From Chitinophaga pinensis (GTDB lineage Bacteria > Bacteroidota > Bacteroidia > Chitinophagales > CAMDFR01): a DNA stretch of 64,000 nucleotides. A model generated the notes under the pieces. The model saw only the letters and a program-made list of their open reading frames with translations, was not told the DNA's origin and searched no databases. The position numbers were made by a program, and so were the translations under genes. Positions within the stretch are counted from its first letter, which is position 1; each line of letters starts with the position of its first letter. This document shows, piece by piece, positions 1-43,740 of this stretch. The stretch lies in contig CAMDFR010000002.1 in NCBI GenBank assembly GCA_945897725.1, forward strand, positions 1 to 64,000, written 5' to 3'.

Positions 1-205
1 AATCTCAAATCAAAAAAACGGATCTATAATCTGTCACTAACTTATCATCATCACTATTTTGTTGATGATAAAAAGAACTAGATAAATACAGATAATATTT
101 CCCAAAGTAATGATAGGTGATTTTCGCCTCACGAATGATTCACAAAACAAAAAAAATGTACGTTGTTAATCTGTCGGGTGAGCCACCCGCCAGGGGATTG
201 TGGTA
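1..205. repeat. Direct repeat copy 1 (left side, truncated by window edge) flanking the secreted-protein operon
   Basis: aatctcaaatcaaaaaaacggatctataatctgtcac...ataggtgattttcgcctcacgaatg...gtcgggtgagccacccgccaggggatt aligns with 5119-5310 over its whole length with small indels. Confidence 0.85.
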
Positions 206-349
206 TGGGATTGAGGCGTTTTGCAGTAAAGACACGAGAGAGAAACTCTTGTTGCAGTGGGGAACTGCCATTTTAAGATTGGAATGAAGAAGTACCTCTC
301 TTATATGATTGAAGTAATATGCAAATTAGAAGCACATACGTTTAATGAA

Positions 350-389
350 CCCACAACCGCAACCACCGGAGGGTAGTTGTGATTGTGGG
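350..389. terminator. Long hairpin 11 nt past the last stop codon of the minus-strand operon
   Basis: CCCACAACCGCAACCACC-GGAG-GGTAGTTGTGATTGTGGG: 18-bp stem with about 2 mismatches; no strong U-tract. Confidence 0.5.
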
Positions 390-399
390 CTAGTTGTGG

Positions 400-1353
400 T
401 TACCACCATCCAATAACATTATAAGTTACAGATTTAGGTTGTCCGTTTCCGTAAGCGACACCAACGTCTCTATACGCTTTAATTCTTTCGCTTTCTTGAG
501 CTTGTTCTTTTAAAGTATAGTTCCACTCACGAGCGTCAAGTTCTTTAACTCTCGCTGCAATTTTGCTTGAAAGTGTTTTTACTTCTGCAAAGCAAGCAGC
601 GCTAGGATCTATCGTTGAAAGAATTTCGCCTGCCGTATTTCCTGCATCAACAGTTTGATTGGCAGCCCATAAGTTTGAAGCTTCTGCTAATTTTAATTTA
701 CACTGTCTGTCAATCTGTAGTTTGTAAATTGGAGCAACAGCATCCATGCATTTATCATAGCACGTTTTACAAACTTCAGGTACGCTAGTCAATTTATAAA
801 TCGCTTCTTCGTATTTGTTCTGGCTAGCTAAAGTTTGAGCTTCCTTAACAATAAAGTCACATTTACTATTGTAGTATTCAACAATTTTAGTCTTTCCTTT
901 TTCAATAAATGCTTGGTAATTTGGATCGGTGGTTTTTAAATTTTTAAGTGCAGAGATATATGCTTTGGTTTCATTTTCTCCTACTCCTTTTACAGTTGTA
1001 GAAATACTTGCAAATTTAGTACCATCAATTCCGTCTCCAATATACAATGTTACATCCAATGTAAATGCTTGCATTGGAGGTGCGGTAGGTGTAATATCCT
1101 TAGACATTACATTGATATTTGCAGTTATAATAAAGCGTTGATTTGAAGCACTACCACCCATACCGTTTTGCGTCACAATCTGACTTAGTTTGTTTGCCAA
1201 CATGCTGCGAGCAGCTTCCGGCATATTGTTAATTTGTTGTGGCACGTAAGCAGCTAAAGTAATTCGAGCCATATCATCACTTTTGCCAGCCGTATTTTGT
1301 GCATAGATATTACAACCTACAACAATTAAGATACTTAGAATTATTGATTTCAT
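400..1353 (-). CDS. Secreted protein of unknown function (Bacteroidota operon, terminal gene)
   Basis: ORF with signal peptide MKSIILSILIVVGCNIYAQ; start trimmed to internal ATG at 1353 so that it does not overlap the upstream gene. Confidence 0.8.
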   Translation of the reverse strand: MKSIILSILIVVGCNIYAQNTAGKSDDMARITLAAYVPQQINNMPEAARSMLANKLSQIVTQNGMGGSASNQRFIITANINVMSKDITPTAPPMQAFTLDVTLYIGDGIDGTKFASISTTVKGVGENETKAYISALKNLKTTDPNYQAFIEKGKTKIVEYYNSKCDFIVKEAQTLASQNKYEEAIYKLTSVPEVCKTCYDKCMDAVAPIYKLQIDRQCKLKLAEASNLWAANQTVDAGNTAGEILSTIDPSAACFAEVKTLSSKIAARVKELDAREWNYTLKEQAQESERIKAYRDVGVAYGNGQPKSVTYNVIGWW

Positions 1354-1372
1354 AATTATATTTTTTTTAGTG

Positions 1373-2332
1373 TTATTTTTCTCCAAGCACTATTGATGCT
1401 TGTCCTAAACCTTTCATCATTAATTTGTTTGTGATTAAAAAAGGTTCCTTTTTCAAATAGCTTTGTAATCCTTTGCAAAAACCTTTGGCATCAATTGCCA
1501 CGCCTGCTTCGTTGTACATCGGAATTCTCACTTGTTTAAACAACATCATGTTTTCTGTAGATTCACTGGTGCTAAAACGACCTTTGACACAATTTTTTGT
1601 GAACCATTCTTCAATATAACTATTTAATTCTTTTCCGTCATACTCTGATTCTAAATCACCATCCCAAGAATCGAATTTTTTGATACGTACTATTATTTCT
1701 CTACCGTTAGCAAACATGTCGTCAAAATGAGCCATTAATTGAACATTAAAGTTGTCAAGATGAGAAAGCACAGCAGTTTGAAGCATTACTGGTAAGGTAG
1801 CACCTATAAGTTCGTTACCTGTTCCTGATGCCCCAGCTATTTGTTTATCTGTATACGCATCTAAACCTTGAAGAATAAATGTGATAGATTTTTTTGGCCC
1901 TACTTGATTTATTGTCCAAGTAACCTGCATCCAAATATCAGCTTTGGCTGTTTTCTTTAATTTATCAATCGGGCTTTCGCTAACACCTGCACCGGTTTTA
2001 CTTGTCAATAAAGCATCCTCTGCGCTCTCAGATGCTAGTGTTTTTAAAACACCTTCCATTGACTCTAATGGGAAACCTCTTTCTGCCATTAACTCACCAA
2101 GCTTAGCAACGACCAACAAAAGATCTGCGTTTTCTTGAAATGCTCTTTTGTAATCAGGAACTTTAACTTTCGTACCTTGATTGTCAAACTCCAACATGTA
2201 GCCATTTGTGTTACACCAAACATCACTTGGCACGACCATTATCGTTGGCTTTTTAGCTTGTGAAAAAACTAAGGTAGTTGCGCCAAAAGTTACGATAGCA
2301 ACTACTATTATCTTTTTTAAAAAATTTTTCAT
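1373..2332 (-). CDS. Secreted protein, DUF6175-like (family recalled from memory)
   Basis: Signal peptide, then PTIMVVPSDVWCNTNGYMLEFDNQG...; TolB/CsgG-like feel of the N-terminal module. Confidence 0.7.
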   Translation of the reverse strand: MKNFLKKIIVVAIVTFGATTLVFSQAKKPTIMVVPSDVWCNTNGYMLEFDNQGTKVKVPDYKRAFQENADLLLVVAKLGELMAERGFPLESMEGVLKTLASESAEDALLTSKTGAGVSESPIDKLKKTAKADIWMQVTWTINQVGPKKSITFILQGLDAYTDKQIAGASGTGNELIGATLPVMLQTAVLSHLDNFNVQLMAHFDDMFANGREIIVRIKKFDSWDGDLESEYDGKELNSYIEEWFTKNCVKGRFSTSESTENMMLFKQVRIPMYNEAGVAIDAKGFCKGLQSYLKKEPFLITNKLMMKGLGQASIVLGEK

Positions 2333-2342
2333 ATTTCTCTTT

Positions 2343-2822
2343 TTAATTGTTTAAAATTTTATCTGCAATCATTTGTTTTTTTAGGTCACTTCTCAAAACT
2401 CGAATAATAAAGCCATACATTACATCACCATCACGTCCTTTTGCTTTTTCTTTTTTGCCAAAAGACTCATCTTTATCAGAGGTAAATTTTTTGTAATCGC
2501 CACCATCTTTAAAGAAGTTGTTGAAATAATCAGCTTTGTTTTCGCGAATATTAGGGGCGTTTAGAATGGGTCTTGTTTCACAATCGGGCTTACCGTTTCT
2601 AATACCAACAAACAAAACAGCGTTTATTACTTCTTTTCTTGCTTGCTCCAAAGCATCTGCTCTATTTTTTCCTTTGCCCCATGCTTTTAAAGTAATACTG
2701 CCATCAAGCTCAGCACCCATACACTCTATTTCGTGTGTATAGTTCCCTGATAATTTATTGTTTGCTTTAGAACCGACAAAAAGCAACAAATTTATTGTAA
2801 GTAAGAATATTGTTGTTTTCAT
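2343..2822 (-). CDS. Small secreted protein, paralogue A of tandem pair
   Basis: Signal peptide; shares layout LKAWGKGKNRADALEQARKEVINAVLFVGI...ENKADYFNNFFKDGGDYKKFTS with the 2838-3359 protein. Confidence 0.8.
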   Translation of the reverse strand: MKTTIFLLTINLLLFVGSKANNKLSGNYTHEIECMGAELDGSITLKAWGKGKNRADALEQARKEVINAVLFVGIRNGKPDCETRPILNAPNIRENKADYFNNFFKDGGDYKKFTSDKDESFGKKEKAKGRDGDVMYGFIIRVLRSDLKKQMIADKILNN

Positions 2823-2837
2823 ATTTTTAATTTTTGG

Positions 2838-3359
2838 TTAGAAACCTGCATTAAGTGATTTAATAATTCCTGCATCTTCTAAATCTTTTCTTAAAGCAGA
2901 TACATTTACAGAAACAACTACTCCAATTTTATATTCTTTACCAATTTTCATTCTGTCTTCAGCGGCAACAGCACCATCGTTAGAAGTAGAAACAAATTTC
3001 ATATACTTACCACCATCAGCAAAAAACGGTTTAAAAAAATCTGCTTTTTCATTTTCCAGATTAACATTACTTGTTAATGCTTTTTGGCCCTCTACAGGGC
3101 CTGTTCCAGTAAACCCTTTAAAAATAATACCATGAACAGCATTTTTTTTCGCTTGCTCTATAGCAACATCAGGTTTTTTGGAGTAAGACCATACCTTAAT
3201 TAAATAGGTGCCTTGGGTACCCGTCTGCACTACATTGATTTCATATCTCCACTCTTCAGTGTCTTGGTCCGCATTTTTTTTTGCTTGAGCATTTGCTACA
3301 GATGAGCAACCTATAATAAGCATAAGCAAAAGGCTCATTTTCTTTTTGATATTTTTCAT
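2838..3359 (-). CDS. Small secreted protein, paralogue B of tandem pair
   Basis: IKVWSYSKKPDVAIEQAKKNAVHGIIFKGF...ENEKADFFKPFFADGGKYMKFVS parallels paralogue A; start trimmed to ATG at 3359. Confidence 0.8.
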   Translation of the reverse strand: MKNIKKKMSLLLMLIIGCSSVANAQAKKNADQDTEEWRYEINVVQTGTQGTYLIKVWSYSKKPDVAIEQAKKNAVHGIIFKGFTGTGPVEGQKALTSNVNLENEKADFFKPFFADGGKYMKFVSTSNDGAVAAEDRMKIGKEYKIGVVVSVNVSALRKDLEDAGIIKSLNAGF

Positions 3360-3429
3360 TTTTGTTTTTTTAATGGTAAATAAAAAGTATTGCAATCAGC
3401 CATAAGCCAATTGCAATACCTGATGTTAA

Positions 3430-4755
3430 TTATTTCATTTGTTTAATAAGCAAACCAGAGTAAAATTTCTTACCTCCCTTAAATGTAGTACGATCAATCA
3501 CCGGTGCAGCTTCTTTTCCATCAGCAGCTGGTTGAGCCACGGGCGCTTCGTCACCATTATAGGTATTGTCCCAAATTAATTCTTTATCTGCTACAATAGT
3601 ACCAATACTTTTATAGGTTGCTACTCCAGTTTTAGGGTCTATGTTTTGCTCAAGTACTTCAAACTTTTCACCACCTTCTAAACCTTCTTTTTTACCAATT
3701 TTAGCAGTGATAGGGTTGCCAGTATAAAGAGGTGTTTTTGTTTTAAACACCTCATATGTTTTCTGAAGCTTAGCGTAAACATTGTCAATAATTCTTACTG
3801 TAGAAAGAGCGATGATTTGATCCTCCGTTCTTTTTTCAGTTAAAGAGAAAGTTATTAAACCTGTAGCATTGGCATCACCAACAAACTCAAGCTTAAATAA
3901 ATCTGTTTTGTCAAAAGCCTCTTTCTTTTTAGGATCAACACCACCTTTTTCCATATACATGTCTGTGAAGAATGCATTTTGAATTGTGTCGTTCCATACC
4001 AATTTGTATAGGTAAGATGTTGCGAAAATAGAATAACCCTCTTTTGTCTTTTCGTAAACAGCATCGATACCTTGGTTCGCTTTATCTAAAAGCGCAGGTA
4101 CAGTAATCTTTGCAGCAGCCTCTGCTTTTGCCAAATCTCTAACAACAGCAGCTACAGGCTCATTAGGATAGAAATTAAATTTGTTGATCACCACAAACGT
4201 ATTTCCTATTAATTCAAAGCCGGCAGTTTTTAATAATGCCTGTCCATCAGAAGAAGCTTGAGCAGACTTTGCTTCTAGAAAAGAAGCATTAAATACACCT
4301 CTATCAGCAACCAAATTCCAATCAAAACTACCATCTGCTTGTCTGTTAAACCATTTAGCAACAAGTTTGTTGGCTATTTTTTCTTTTGATAGATATTTTT
4401 GAATTCTATAAGGTAATTCTCTAGCAACAGAATCGATTTTTATAGACGCTGCACTTGCTAACATACCACCTACTTGAGAAGGCTTATAAATGAGAGACTT
4501 TTCTTCTGCAGTTAAAGTGTAATTAGCAGGATTGAATGATTTTTGATCAATGGTGTGGTCGTTATATTTATCAGGGAAAGGAGCAGTGTTGAATGCCTTT
4601 AAAACGATATCTTTTTTAGGAAATTTTTCAGATTCAACAACCATGGTGTGTAAAGAGCTTCTACGAAACTTTACGTCTAATGGTTTGTCTTGTGTTTGGG
4701 CGAATAAGCTAGTACCCAATGTCAATAAGCTAAATGCAATAATTGTTTGTTTCAT
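3430..4755 (-). CDS. Secreted protein of unknown function, first gene of operon
   Basis: Signal peptide MKQTIIAFSLLTLGTSLFAQ at trimmed start 4755; about 440 aa. Confidence 0.8.
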   Translation of the reverse strand: MKQTIIAFSLLTLGTSLFAQTQDKPLDVKFRRSSLHTMVVESEKFPKKDIVLKAFNTAPFPDKYNDHTIDQKSFNPANYTLTAEEKSLIYKPSQVGGMLASAASIKIDSVARELPYRIQKYLSKEKIANKLVAKWFNRQADGSFDWNLVADRGVFNASFLEAKSAQASSDGQALLKTAGFELIGNTFVVINKFNFYPNEPVAAVVRDLAKAEAAAKITVPALLDKANQGIDAVYEKTKEGYSIFATSYLYKLVWNDTIQNAFFTDMYMEKGGVDPKKKEAFDKTDLFKLEFVGDANATGLITFSLTEKRTEDQIIALSTVRIIDNVYAKLQKTYEVFKTKTPLYTGNPITAKIGKKEGLEGGEKFEVLEQNIDPKTGVATYKSIGTIVADKELIWDNTYNGDEAPVAQPAADGKEAAPVIDRTTFKGGKKFYSGLLIKQMK

Positions 4756-5091
4756 TTTTGTGTTTTTGTATGTAATTAAATTTTTCCTACTCATATGGCT
4801 TTTCGGATGCGCCCCGTTTTTTAAAGTGGGTTCTGGTCGCCACTTGTATTTGCAATATTAGTAAATGTTTATCAAATACCACCGATATTGTCCTTAGTGG
4901 GGTGTCTAAAAACGCGAGAACCAAGGACATAAGTAGCGCTAAGGCTTGTCTTTGCGTCAGTTTATGACCTCAGAATGCTGAATCTATGGCGGGTGACACC
5001 CAACATGGGTTCAGAAGGAAACTTCTTGCATTGAGCAGAAATGTAAGGTTGATGAAAGTTATCTTTTGAAACATTACCTACGAACGCTGAA

Positions 5092-5120
5092 TTGATGTCG
5101 GGTGGCTCACCCGACATCAA
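5092..5120. repeat. Perfect 12-bp-stem hairpin
   Basis: TTGATGTCGGGT-GGCTC-ACCCGACATCAA. Confidence 0.9.
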
Positions 5121-5310
5121 TCTCAAATCAAAAAACGGACCTATAATCTGTCACGAACTCATCATGATCACTAATTTTTTGAAGATACAAAGAACTAGAT
5201 GAATACGACTAATCGATGAACGATAGGTGGTTTTCGCCTCATGAATGTTACATAAAGTAATAAAAACATGTTTTGTTATGATGTCGGGTGAGCCACCCGC
5301 CATGGGATTC
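5119..5310. repeat. Direct repeat copy 2 (right side) flanking the secreted-protein operon
   Basis: Aligns with 1-205. Confidence 0.85.
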
Positions 5311-5447: not shown

Positions 5448-6443
5448 TCACTTCTTACTTACCCCCTTTTGTTGATGTTGTAGAATGATAGTTGATATTT
5501 TCTCAGAAAAAAGCCCGGCTCCCTTTTTATTCAAGTGCTGATACTCGTAATACATACTATCATTCAACTCCGGCAAATCATTATTGTAAAAATCATACAC
5601 CTCCATATTCGTATACTTCTTTGTCGCCTCCACTAATTTCTTTGAATACATCAACTCAGCTTTGTCAATAAATGTTCCCCTGGTAAGCTGCTTCCAATAA
5701 GGTGAAGCTGGAGGCTGATACATGATAAAATAGGATTTATTTGTACTCAATGCTTGTAGCACTTCTTGAAATTTTGTCCAGCGGACATCGCTATTGGAAA
5801 AGTGCTTATACCAAGCATGGTTCTCAAAATACTTAGTGGTCTCGATAGAATCTTTTAATAATTGAAAATAACCAGTATTGCCACGGAAACCCTTGTTATT
5901 TTTGATAGCAAGCGCTTCACCATCCGTTAGCTCTTTAGGTCTATCTAAAATATCATTGAAGGTTTCTGATAATAGCACAAAATACATTGAAATAAATTCT
6001 CTTGGATTGTCCCTATGCAACCTCAGCCTTTCTAAAAACGACATTTGCTGAAAGCCCTTGTTTGACAAGTAGCCAAAATCTATGGCACCGTCATTAATTT
6101 GCCAGCTACTCACACTCACCACAAAGATGAGGTTTGAAGAAGAATAGCGATTTTTTATAGCGTAAAGAAAGGACACAAGGTCTCCTCCTTTTGTTGCAAT
6201 ATTGATCGTATTATATCCTGTGTTTTTTTCAATAATGGATGGAAACAATTGTTTTTCTGCTCTAGAATCTCCAGCAATAATGATATTTACTTTTGTCGTA
6301 TCAATCTTCAATCTGGTGATCTTATTTTCCATGTCACTGATACTTTTATCTTCCAACCTATAGTTGATTATGTTATGCACAAAGAAAAACAGCACCGAAG
6401 GAATGATCAGAAAAAGGAAAGTATGGTATAGAAACTTTTTCAT
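5448..6443 (-). CDS. SGNH/GDSL-hydrolase-fold protein, AlgJ/AlgX-like partner of the MBOAT acyltransferase
   Basis: N-terminal TM helix, IIIAGDSRAE block I and C-terminal D..YYEYQHLNKKGAGLFS block V; adjacent to MBOAT; start trimmed to MKKFLYHTF at 6443. Confidence 0.75.
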   Translation of the reverse strand: MKKFLYHTFLFLIIPSVLFFFVHNIINYRLEDKSISDMENKITRLKIDTTKVNIIIAGDSRAEKQLFPSIIEKNTGYNTINIATKGGDLVSFLYAIKNRYSSSNLIFVVSVSSWQINDGAIDFGYLSNKGFQQMSFLERLRLHRDNPREFISMYFVLLSETFNDILDRPKELTDGEALAIKNNKGFRGNTGYFQLLKDSIETTKYFENHAWYKHFSNSDVRWTKFQEVLQALSTNKSYFIMYQPPASPYWKQLTRGTFIDKAELMYSKKLVEATKKYTNMEVYDFYNNDLPELNDSMYYEYQHLNKKGAGLFSEKISTIILQHQQKGVSKK

Positions 6444-6451
6444 GTCGATTC

Positions 6452-7900
6452 CTAAAATTGAAAATAAATAAATTGTTGTTCCTTGCCAACGAACCAAATA
6501 ATTGTAGCAATGATTCCATAGTACATTGACCATCTCAAAGGCTTATACCACGTGTTTCCTAGACGTGCTATCGCAAATTGCTCCTCTCTTCCAATCCATT
6601 CTATCAGAATAAATACGCCCGTCAATGCAATAATGGGAGGGGTAAGCCCTATGCCTGGAAAATAAGGAACTGTAAAGATAGACATGGAGAAAATTTCTCT
6701 AACATAGTAATAAGCATCGTGAACATTTGCTGCCCTAAAAAATATCCAAGCAAATACTGTTAAGCTAAAAGTTAGTCCAATTGAAAAAACATCTTTTATT
6801 GTTGGTAGGTACTTCCCTTTTGCTACAATATCCAAATTATTTCTATTTGTATTGGATAGAATGGATGGCATTATATATAAGGCATTTAAAAAGCCCCAAA
6901 TTAAAAAAGTCCAGTTGGCACCATGCCAAAAACCACTCACCAAGAAGATGATAAATGTGTTTCTGACTTTGATCCATGTACCTCCCTTACTTCCCCCTAA
7001 TGGAATATAGAGATAGTCTTTAAACCAAGAAGAGAGAGAGATGTGCCATCGACGCCAGAACTCTGCTATGTCCCTTGAAAAATAAGGGAAAGCAAAATTT
7101 CTTAACAGGTCAATCCCAAATAATCTTGCTGTTCCAATTGCAATATCTGAGTATCCTGAAAAATCGCAATAGATTTGAAAAGTAAAGAACAGTGCACCTA
7201 AAACATGTGTACTTCCTGAATAGTCAGCAGAATTATTAAAAATCTTGTTTGCATATTCAGCACAATTATCGGCTATCACAATCTTCTTAAACAAACCCCA
7301 TAAAATCTGTCGTAAACCATCCACTGCCTTTGCATAATCAAATTGTCTCTTTTTCAATATTTGTGGTAAAAGATGCGTCGCTCTTTCTATAGGACCTGCG
7401 ACTAGCAAAGGAAAGAAACTAACAAAAACGGCGTAATCAATAAAATTTCTTTCCGGCCTCATCCTGTCTTTATAAAGATCCAGCACATAAGATAAACCAT
7501 GAAAAGTATAGAAGGAAATCCCCACAGGTAAGATAACTTGTAAGGAACTTAAGCTCGTATTAAAACCAAGCAATGAAAGTCCGTCGGCAAAAGAGTCTGC
7601 GAAGAAATTATAATATTTAAATACACCTAGAAAGCCAAGATTAATAACAATACTTATCTGTAACCAAATTAATTTGCTTCGTTGTTGCTTAGCTTCACAG
7701 ATCTTGATACCGGTATAAAAATCTAATAGCGTTGAGAAGACTAGCAAAAACATAAAGCGCCAGTCCCAGCAAGCATAAAAAAAGTAGCTAGAAACGAGCA
7801 GTAAAATATTTTGAAGTCTTACATTTCTTTTAGTTGCAAACCAGTAAAGTATAAAAACAATCGGTAAGAATATTGCAAAGCTTAAGGAGTTGAAAAACAT
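6452..7900 (-). CDS. MBOAT family O-acyltransferase (AlgI/DltB-like)
   Basis: Polytopic; FFPLLVAGPIERATHLLPQ, FSGYSDIAIGTARLFGI, NFAFPYFSRDIAEFWRRWHISLSSWFKDYLYIPLGGSKGG, SGFWHGANWTF. Confidence 0.95.
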   Translation of the reverse strand: MFFNSLSFAIFLPIVFILYWFATKRNVRLQNILLLVSSYFFYACWDWRFMFLLVFSTLLDFYTGIKICEAKQQRSKLIWLQISIVINLGFLGVFKYYNFFADSFADGLSLLGFNTSLSSLQVILPVGISFYTFHGLSYVLDLYKDRMRPERNFIDYAVFVSFFPLLVAGPIERATHLLPQILKKRQFDYAKAVDGLRQILWGLFKKIVIADNCAEYANKIFNNSADYSGSTHVLGALFFTFQIYCDFSGYSDIAIGTARLFGIDLLRNFAFPYFSRDIAEFWRRWHISLSSWFKDYLYIPLGGSKGGTWIKVRNTFIIFLVSGFWHGANWTFLIWGFLNALYIMPSILSNTNRNNLDIVAKGKYLPTIKDVFSIGLTFSLTVFAWIFFRAANVHDAYYYVREIFSMSIFTVPYFPGIGLTPPIIALTGVFILIEWIGREEQFAIARLGNTWYKPLRWSMYYGIIATIIWFVGKEQQFIYFQF

Positions 7901-14921: not shown

Positions 14922-15022
14922 TCAATAATTTCCTATCATTTTCTTGTCATAGTGATATGGCACAAAAAATATTTTTCATAAATTAGAGTAATTTTGTCCT
15001 GCCCTTGTTGCTGTTTCCTTTT

Positions 15023-15157
15023 CGCCCTTGTTGGTGTTATTCACCAACAAGTATTTTTGTTCTGACCGTTCGAAGTTAAAAACATCGGTTTCCCTCCTTT
15101 ATTTGTGTTCCTAACCAAGGGATACAAGTACCGCTACCGCTCATGCCAATTTGGTAG
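15023..15157. repeat. ~135-bp direct repeat, unit 1
   Basis: cgcccttgttggtgttattcaccaacaagtatttttgttctgaccgttcgaagttaaaaacatcggtttccctcc...aagggatacaagtaccgctaccgctcatgccaatttggta; near-identical to unit 2. Confidence 0.93.
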
Positions 15158-15158
15158 C

Positions 15159-15198
15159 CTTACTTTTTCCTTGATGAAAAAGTAACAAAAAATCAAGG
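15159..15198. repeat. Dispersed TTTTTCCTTGATGAAAAAGTAACAAAAAATCAAGG element, copy 2
   Basis: Near-identical to 11469-11510. Confidence 0.8.
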
Positions 15199-15402
15199 CC
15201 TGCACCGGCTAGGGCTAAAACTTCATTGCGTATCGCGGCACAAAAAAAACTCGCTGCGCTCAAACAGTTTTTTGTGCTTATCGCTTCACTTCATTTCGTT
15301 TTAAGCACCTACCCGCTGAGGGCCGTCCTTTCGTTCCAAATGATGTCTTCACATTTCTAAACATTCACAAAACAGTTTCCTACTCTTGTTGGTGTATCTT
15401 TT

Positions 15403-15538
15403 TCGCCCTTGTTGGTGTTATTCACCAACAAGTATTTTTGTTCTGACCGTTCGAAGTTAAAAACATCGGTTTCCCTCCCTTATTGTTGTTCTTCACCAAG
15501 GGATACAAGTACCGCTACCGCTCATGCCAATTTGGTAA
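15403..15538. repeat. ~135-bp direct repeat, unit 2
   Basis: See unit 1 at 15023-15157. Confidence 0.93.
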
Positions 15539-43399: not shown

Positions 43400-43740
43400 G
43401 AAATGCCTGCATTCCATATGGTAGGCTATCCTTCATTGCTTCGTCATCGCAATCACTTTCCGTCAAGCTCGTCATTCATCCCGATGTCAATCGGGATTAA
43501 ACTTCTTGAAAAAAAATCAAATCACAAATTGATATAGGTATTATTGTTTGAAGAAGATGTTTTTCAATTAAATTGTGTACGTTGCAATACGTGGAAATTT
43601 TCTTTAAAAGATCATTCCTATTCACTCTTAAGCTTTGAATCCTAGGCGAGAAGTTTCCTTCTGAATGACGGTTGGTATTGAATATTACCGCCCTTGTCGG
43701 TGTTATTCACCAACAAGTAATCAAAGGAAAATCATCCATC
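43400..43740. repeat. Composite intergenic repeat region
   Basis: ATCCCGAT-gtca-ATCGGGAT hairpin; ccttctgaatg/gaagtttcc block is the inverse of 5004-5024; CTTGTCGGTGttattCACCAACAAG hairpin matches the head of the 15023/15403 repeats. Confidence 0.7.

Follow-up and report, generated by a model that had tools for sequence, protein, structure and literature searches.

The window, the 64,000-nucleotide stretch of Chitinophaga pinensis DNA that was analysed, begins with the first base of contig C2, and the ORF listing, with best starts, gives five consecutive minus-strand ORFs at 400–4755, transcribed in the order E-D-C-B-A. The features of the locus are as follows:

1–199, plus strand: dispersed palindromic repeat, the copy lying at the end of the contig
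391–4855, minus strand: transferred block (operon and RNA leader), as delimited by blastn matches to the DNA of Flavobacterium and other relatives
400–1353, minus strand: gene A, 317 aa, exported; N-terminal domain in common with the LPP20-family C-terminus, then a helical TPR-like region with conserved cysteines
1373–2332, minus strand: gene B, 319 aa, DUF6175; CsgG/GNA1162/PelC-like predicted fold
2343–2822, minus strand: gene C, 159 aa, small exported protein; a lipoprotein by lipobox pattern in about one third of relatives
2838–3359, minus strand: gene D, 173 aa, small exported protein; paralogue of C
3385–3421, minus strand: terminator-like hairpin between E and D (possible attenuator), a 17-pair stem followed by TTTATTTA
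3430–4755, minus strand: gene E, 441 aa, exported; FlgT-like predicted fold, ending in a predicted SH3-like domain of the FlgT-C type
4780–4848, minus strand: DUF805 RNA (RF03081), the operon leader, 69 nt, ending 24 nt before the gene E ATG
4864–4968, no strand assigned: host flank, with a single-copy counterpart in sister species G047 (contig C57:3-107; 76% over 106 nt)
5095–5310, plus strand: dispersed palindromic repeat copy; repeat match from 5119, with an additional inverted palindrome at 5095–5119

The initial annotation had described this region as five secreted-protein genes, which was confirmed, and had missed the RNA leader. A hydrophobic signal-like N-terminal segment is present in all five proteins and, by a crude count, in nearly all of their relatives. 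The conserved synteny that it anticipated was also found. Among 80 loci fetched from public genomes, 55 show the order E-D-C-B-A and 22 the order E-D-B-A, two are cut by contig ends and one is rearranged, such that the gene set is kept at all 80 and the same order at 79. Rearrangement to E-B-A-D-C, and additional E- or D-like copies upstream, were observed among L115 (from Flavobacteriales UBA4466), L054 and L059. No conserved neighbours were found beyond the five genes and, since no other neighbour is common to more than 9 of 88 loci, the five-gene module is considered self-contained. An apparent fusion of E and D in a single ORF at L051 was rejected and not counted, because the signal peptide of D lies within the ORF. 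The hairpin between E and D, lying on the operon strand, could possibly adjust the level of E relative to D-A. The proposal of an undescribed secreted or envelope gene set is supported.

It had also been proposed that the operon is bracketed by direct repeats of about 190 bp acting as the ends of a mobile unit. The repeats exist, and two copies (1–199 and 5119–5310) do flank the operon in the same orientation, such that excision or insertion of the block by recombination between them might be envisaged. However, they are only 77–80% identical, with gaps, and agree exactly over at most 21 nt, in the palindrome TGTCGGGTGAGCCACCCGCCA. A check of genomic copy number counted against repeat-based mobility, with 17 matches of the repeat query on four contigs of the host genome, mostly to the palindromic part, and with the family also present in two of three congeners. 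Moreover, the left copy is a mere assembly stop, because the window begins at the first base of the contig, no integrase, recombinase or transposase gene occurs among the five genes between the copies, and the block edges lie 190–260 bp inside the repeats. Belonging to a dispersed palindromic family, and with the left copy marking a contig end, the repeats are not marks of a mobile unit, and we regard recombination between them as a highly improbable explanation for the block. A 160-bp repeat elsewhere in the window (14997–15537; two copies, 94%, 381 bp apart), the palindromic part of which recurs at 43689–43719, looks like another dispersed palindromic repeat family.

The extent of the shared DNA was defined by blastn homology, which covers 401–4845 in Flavobacterium swingsii (L042), starts at 391 in F. 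psychrophilum (L043) and reaches 4855 in a further relative (L050), while homology to sister species G047 starts at 4864. From these limits (391/401, 4845–4855 and 4864) it follows that the shared unit consists of the operon and its 69-nt leader, with both repeats outside. The edges, at about 391–401 and 4855–4864, are placed to within about 10 bp either side. G047 lacks the operon and its contig ends exactly at the junction; in the other direction, beyond a variable stretch, it is collinear with the window through rfbA and the alanine dehydrogenase gene at 82–86% DNA identity. An empty site was looked for and none was read, since the sequence to the right belongs to an exopolysaccharide region with other content in the sister species, while to the left the block edge lies near the contig end. 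The neighbourhood itself is variable, because G047 carries different genes in the three kilobases to the right. At 5448–7900 SGNH-like and MBOAT-like genes were recognised by eye in this exopolysaccharide region, where G047 has three different genes, as at a variable surface locus.

The relationships of the operon differ from those of its host. A FastTree tree groups it, at full local support (100), with F. swingsii, F. psychrophilum and F. frigoris, and proteins A, B, D and E are 69–85%, and C 45–75%, identical to those of the three Flavobacterium species, while for host ribosomal protein S2 (RpsB) the identity to the Flavobacterium noncentrifugens protein is only 56%. One congener carries an operon version of which the DUF6175 protein is only 49% identical, and the operon, or its DUF6175 gene, is absent from a second congener, rated 100% complete, and from the near sister. 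The GC3 values of the five operon genes range from 0.22 to 0.28, against 0.29–0.37 in seven nearby genes. DUF6175 is also patchily distributed, occurring in 22 of 199 genomes of the order and in 19 of 398 in a sample of the phylum. Horizontal transfer of the operon is therefore well supported and the module has moved between distantly related Bacteroidota. The earlier suggestion that the block is gained or lost as a unit holds in this form, with an operon missing or divergent in congeners and shared DNA consisting of operon and leader.

The leader was identified by cmscan against Rfam as RF03081, with 79.1 bits relative to a gathering score of 51.1. An RNA model built from 14 examples was searched over about 1 Mb from 89 sources, and the RNA was found ahead of E in the window and in 13 other operons, in every case in sense orientation, 4–24 nt before the start codon; these represent only 14 of about 71 scorable leaders. 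The same search detected the RNA twice more in the F. frigoris locus, where genes other than E follow it, and gave a single marginal match. Pairing in helix 1 reaches 94.9%, and four of its five pairs show compensatory changes. Its covariation, 18 double-change cells relative to 4.5 in shuffles, scored above every shuffle and every slid control; the alignment had been fitted to helix 1, and the slid controls were far lower. Folded alone, the leader showed no unusual stability (z 0.34) and, for this reason, the assignment rests on the covariation and the Rfam model. The presence and placement of the leader, like the gene set and its order, are well supported.

Elsewhere in the host and sister genomes, DUF805 RNA sites were found ahead of one DUF805 gene, one TM2 gene and two Por_Secre_tail genes. 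Those of the host (G000 C48:1255-1323, C6:127262-127683 and C26:2354-2437) lie 12–19 nt before genes for small membrane or secreted proteins, one carrying a TM2 domain, and the sites on C6 and C26 fall below the gathering score. A single F. frigoris locus (L041:371-3562) carries three DUF805 RNA copies together with one DUF805b RNA.

Gene B is the most readily classified of the five proteins. It matches DUF6175 (PF19672) with 396.1 bits, against a cut-off of 23, over model positions 1–293 of 293, which bears out the tentative assignment of the 1373–2332 product made in the initial annotation. The CsgG-like character suggested there gains some support from the predicted structure (pLDDT 84.8), for which Foldseek matched CsgG 4uv2 with probability 0.99 and E 8e-4, at a TM-score of only 0.27, and also GNA1162, PelC and FlgT. 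For gene E, the AlphaFold2 model (pLDDT 81, pTM 0.79) gave significant PDB matches only to FlgT of the Vibrio flagellar LPHT ring (8z5n and 3w1e; probability 1.00, E 1.4e-5 and 1.1e-4), again with low TM-scores of 0.19–0.23; the FlgT C-terminal domain was also its top match in a viral library, with probability 0.97 but E 0.067. Because the Foldseek TM-scores are low (0.19–0.27), the resemblances of E and B are domain-level at best, and both folds are predictions. Pfam revealed no FlgT_N, FlgT_M or FlgT_C sequence domain in E, and for A, C, D and E nothing credible emerged from Pfam, NCBIfam and PADLOC. Among PDB sequences, the profiles of A, B, D and E retrieved no credible relative. Matches of E to ribosomal protein eL14 (best E 7e-4) are confined to its first 90 residues and were dismissed as chance hits.

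C and D are paralogues (hhalign probability 99.95), and D is also related to lipoprotein-like proteins of distant operons (99.5). A crude regular-expression count found a lipobox pattern in 20 of 62 relatives of C. A match of D to CodY-HTH was below the cut-off, spanned 27 residues only and was discarded. The N-terminal domain of A was linked to the LPP20-family C-terminus by hhalign via distant A homologues (probabilities 100 and 93.9), and members of the A family show weak TPR-type Pfam matches. None of the five proteins, C and D included, has an above-cut-off match to LPP20 (PF02169), nor does any protein of the whole host genome.

The domain-level resemblance is strengthened by distant DUF6175 loci, at several of which the gene at the E position encodes a protein that scores above the Pfam cut-off for the CsgG/LpoB family and carries an SH3-like tail. 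Among these position-E relatives LpoB is the most frequent Pfam match (six of seven) but, since the CsgG model covers the identical stretch, the LpoB match is not specific; one distant position-E protein has a weak FlgT_M match (E 0.005, below cut-off). The CsgG Pfam domain was found in none of the window proteins and, because comparison of the E profile with CsgG-like proteins gave a probability of only 15%, sequence homology between E and CsgG is not demonstrated. In five distant genomes the C/D domain and DUF6175 form one protein, and the next gene encodes an LPP20-domain protein, which carries at its C-terminus a relative of the N-terminal domain of A. In distant genome G301, the position-E protein (L224:3623-5323) has a long C-terminal region that appears, by eye, outer-membrane beta-barrel-like.

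Taken together, these results point to an undescribed, CsgG/FlgT-like module associated with the outer membrane, under RNA control and acquired with its leader from a Flavobacterium-like donor, a reading to which we assign a probability of about 0.55. Its products would form a periplasmic assembly at the outer membrane made of CsgG/FlgT/LPP20-type domains, most likely as a ring or scaffold. E, with its FlgT/CsgG-like predicted fold and SH3-like C-terminus, would constitute the core, while C and D, small proteins that are lipoproteins in a third of relatives, would provide the outer-membrane anchor and may contact B, the CsgG-like DUF6175 protein to which the C/D domain is joined in distant relatives, with A possibly serving as an adaptor. 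The DUF805 RNA, situated at or just before the ribosome-binding region, may set translation of the first gene. The operon would have arrived from the donor with this RNA as its 5' leader. A wider and more tentative proposal, which we hold to be possible rather than probable, is that of a phylum-wide, horizontally moving Bacteroidota outer-membrane machine, distinct from curli, type IX and flagellar systems, with FlgT modules split over several proteins and switched by the DUF805 RNA via its first gene.

Other functions can be considered for the same genes. The CsgG/LpoB proteins at position E of distant operons and the CsgG-like predicted fold of B would also be consistent with a genuine exporter, namely a type VIII-like pore that secretes a substrate of its own. 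This we consider unlikely, given that neither curli subunit or accessory genes, including CsgA/B/E/F-type genes, nor a substrate gene are conserved near the operon loci and that, by a crude count, the lipobox pattern is absent from E of the window and present in only one of 84 E relatives. LpoB, PelC, GNA1162 and FlgT share the same fold and are not known to be pores. A similarly low weight is given to a group of lipoproteins that would control a cell-wall enzyme in the manner of LpoB, or support another envelope machine without forming one, for which the prevalence of LpoB among the Pfam matches could be cited; that match is unspecific, however, and five conserved genes with an FlgT-like architecture exceed a simple activator. 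A stress, sensing or cell-death module is less probable still. It is prompted by a C-family protein fused to caspase (Peptidase_C14, PF00656, 74 bits) in Bacteroidetes bacterium GWA2_32_17 (L052:2324-3691) and by a gene with a NADase-translocation domain just upstream of E in F. frigoris, but each was seen only once, and PADLOC matched none of the five window proteins and only the caspase part of the fusion.

The outer-membrane-associated module can be compared with several known systems. Its leader resembles other DUF805 RNAs in sequence, structure and location upstream of a start codon, and in the sister species such an RNA also precedes a DUF805 gene; the leader differs in heading a five-gene envelope operon. 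No report of such an association was found, and the open-access literature searched held no text on DUF805 RNA. This orphan RNA thereby gains a large conserved target operon with a measurable output, which can be used in searches for ligands or proteins. Gene B is a full-length member of DUF6175, described in its Pfam entry as a family of unknown function and mentioned in no paper found in the open-access literature. Neither its operon context nor its fold or RNA leader appears to have been described, and the family now gains a conserved set of partners, a regulatory RNA and a class of predicted fold. With the LPP20 family there is a domain common to A and to the LPP20 proteins adjoining DUF6175 in distant genomes, although the window proteins miss the LPP20 model. 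The likeness to CsgG and curli export (type VIII), PelC, GNA1162 and LpoB would lie in the predicted fold of B and in the CsgG/LpoB proteins at the E position of distant operons, whereas the CsgG model is missed by the window proteins and curli genes are absent nearby.

Papers linking FlgT with CsgG or with Bacteroidetes were not found in the open-access literature. In Vibrio, a single ring contains FlgT, FlgO and the lipoprotein FlgP as components linked to the outer membrane (PMC6504787). The module may have in common with this H ring the FlgT-like fold predicted for E, including the SH3-like C-terminal domain, but differs in lacking FlgT Pfam matches and flagellar genes among the conserved neighbours of the operon loci, and FlgT-type modules appear to be spread over several proteins. 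The comparison suggests that ring building blocks of the H-ring/curli type are reused in non-flagellar Bacteroidota envelopes, where they would sit in a cassette that moves between families.
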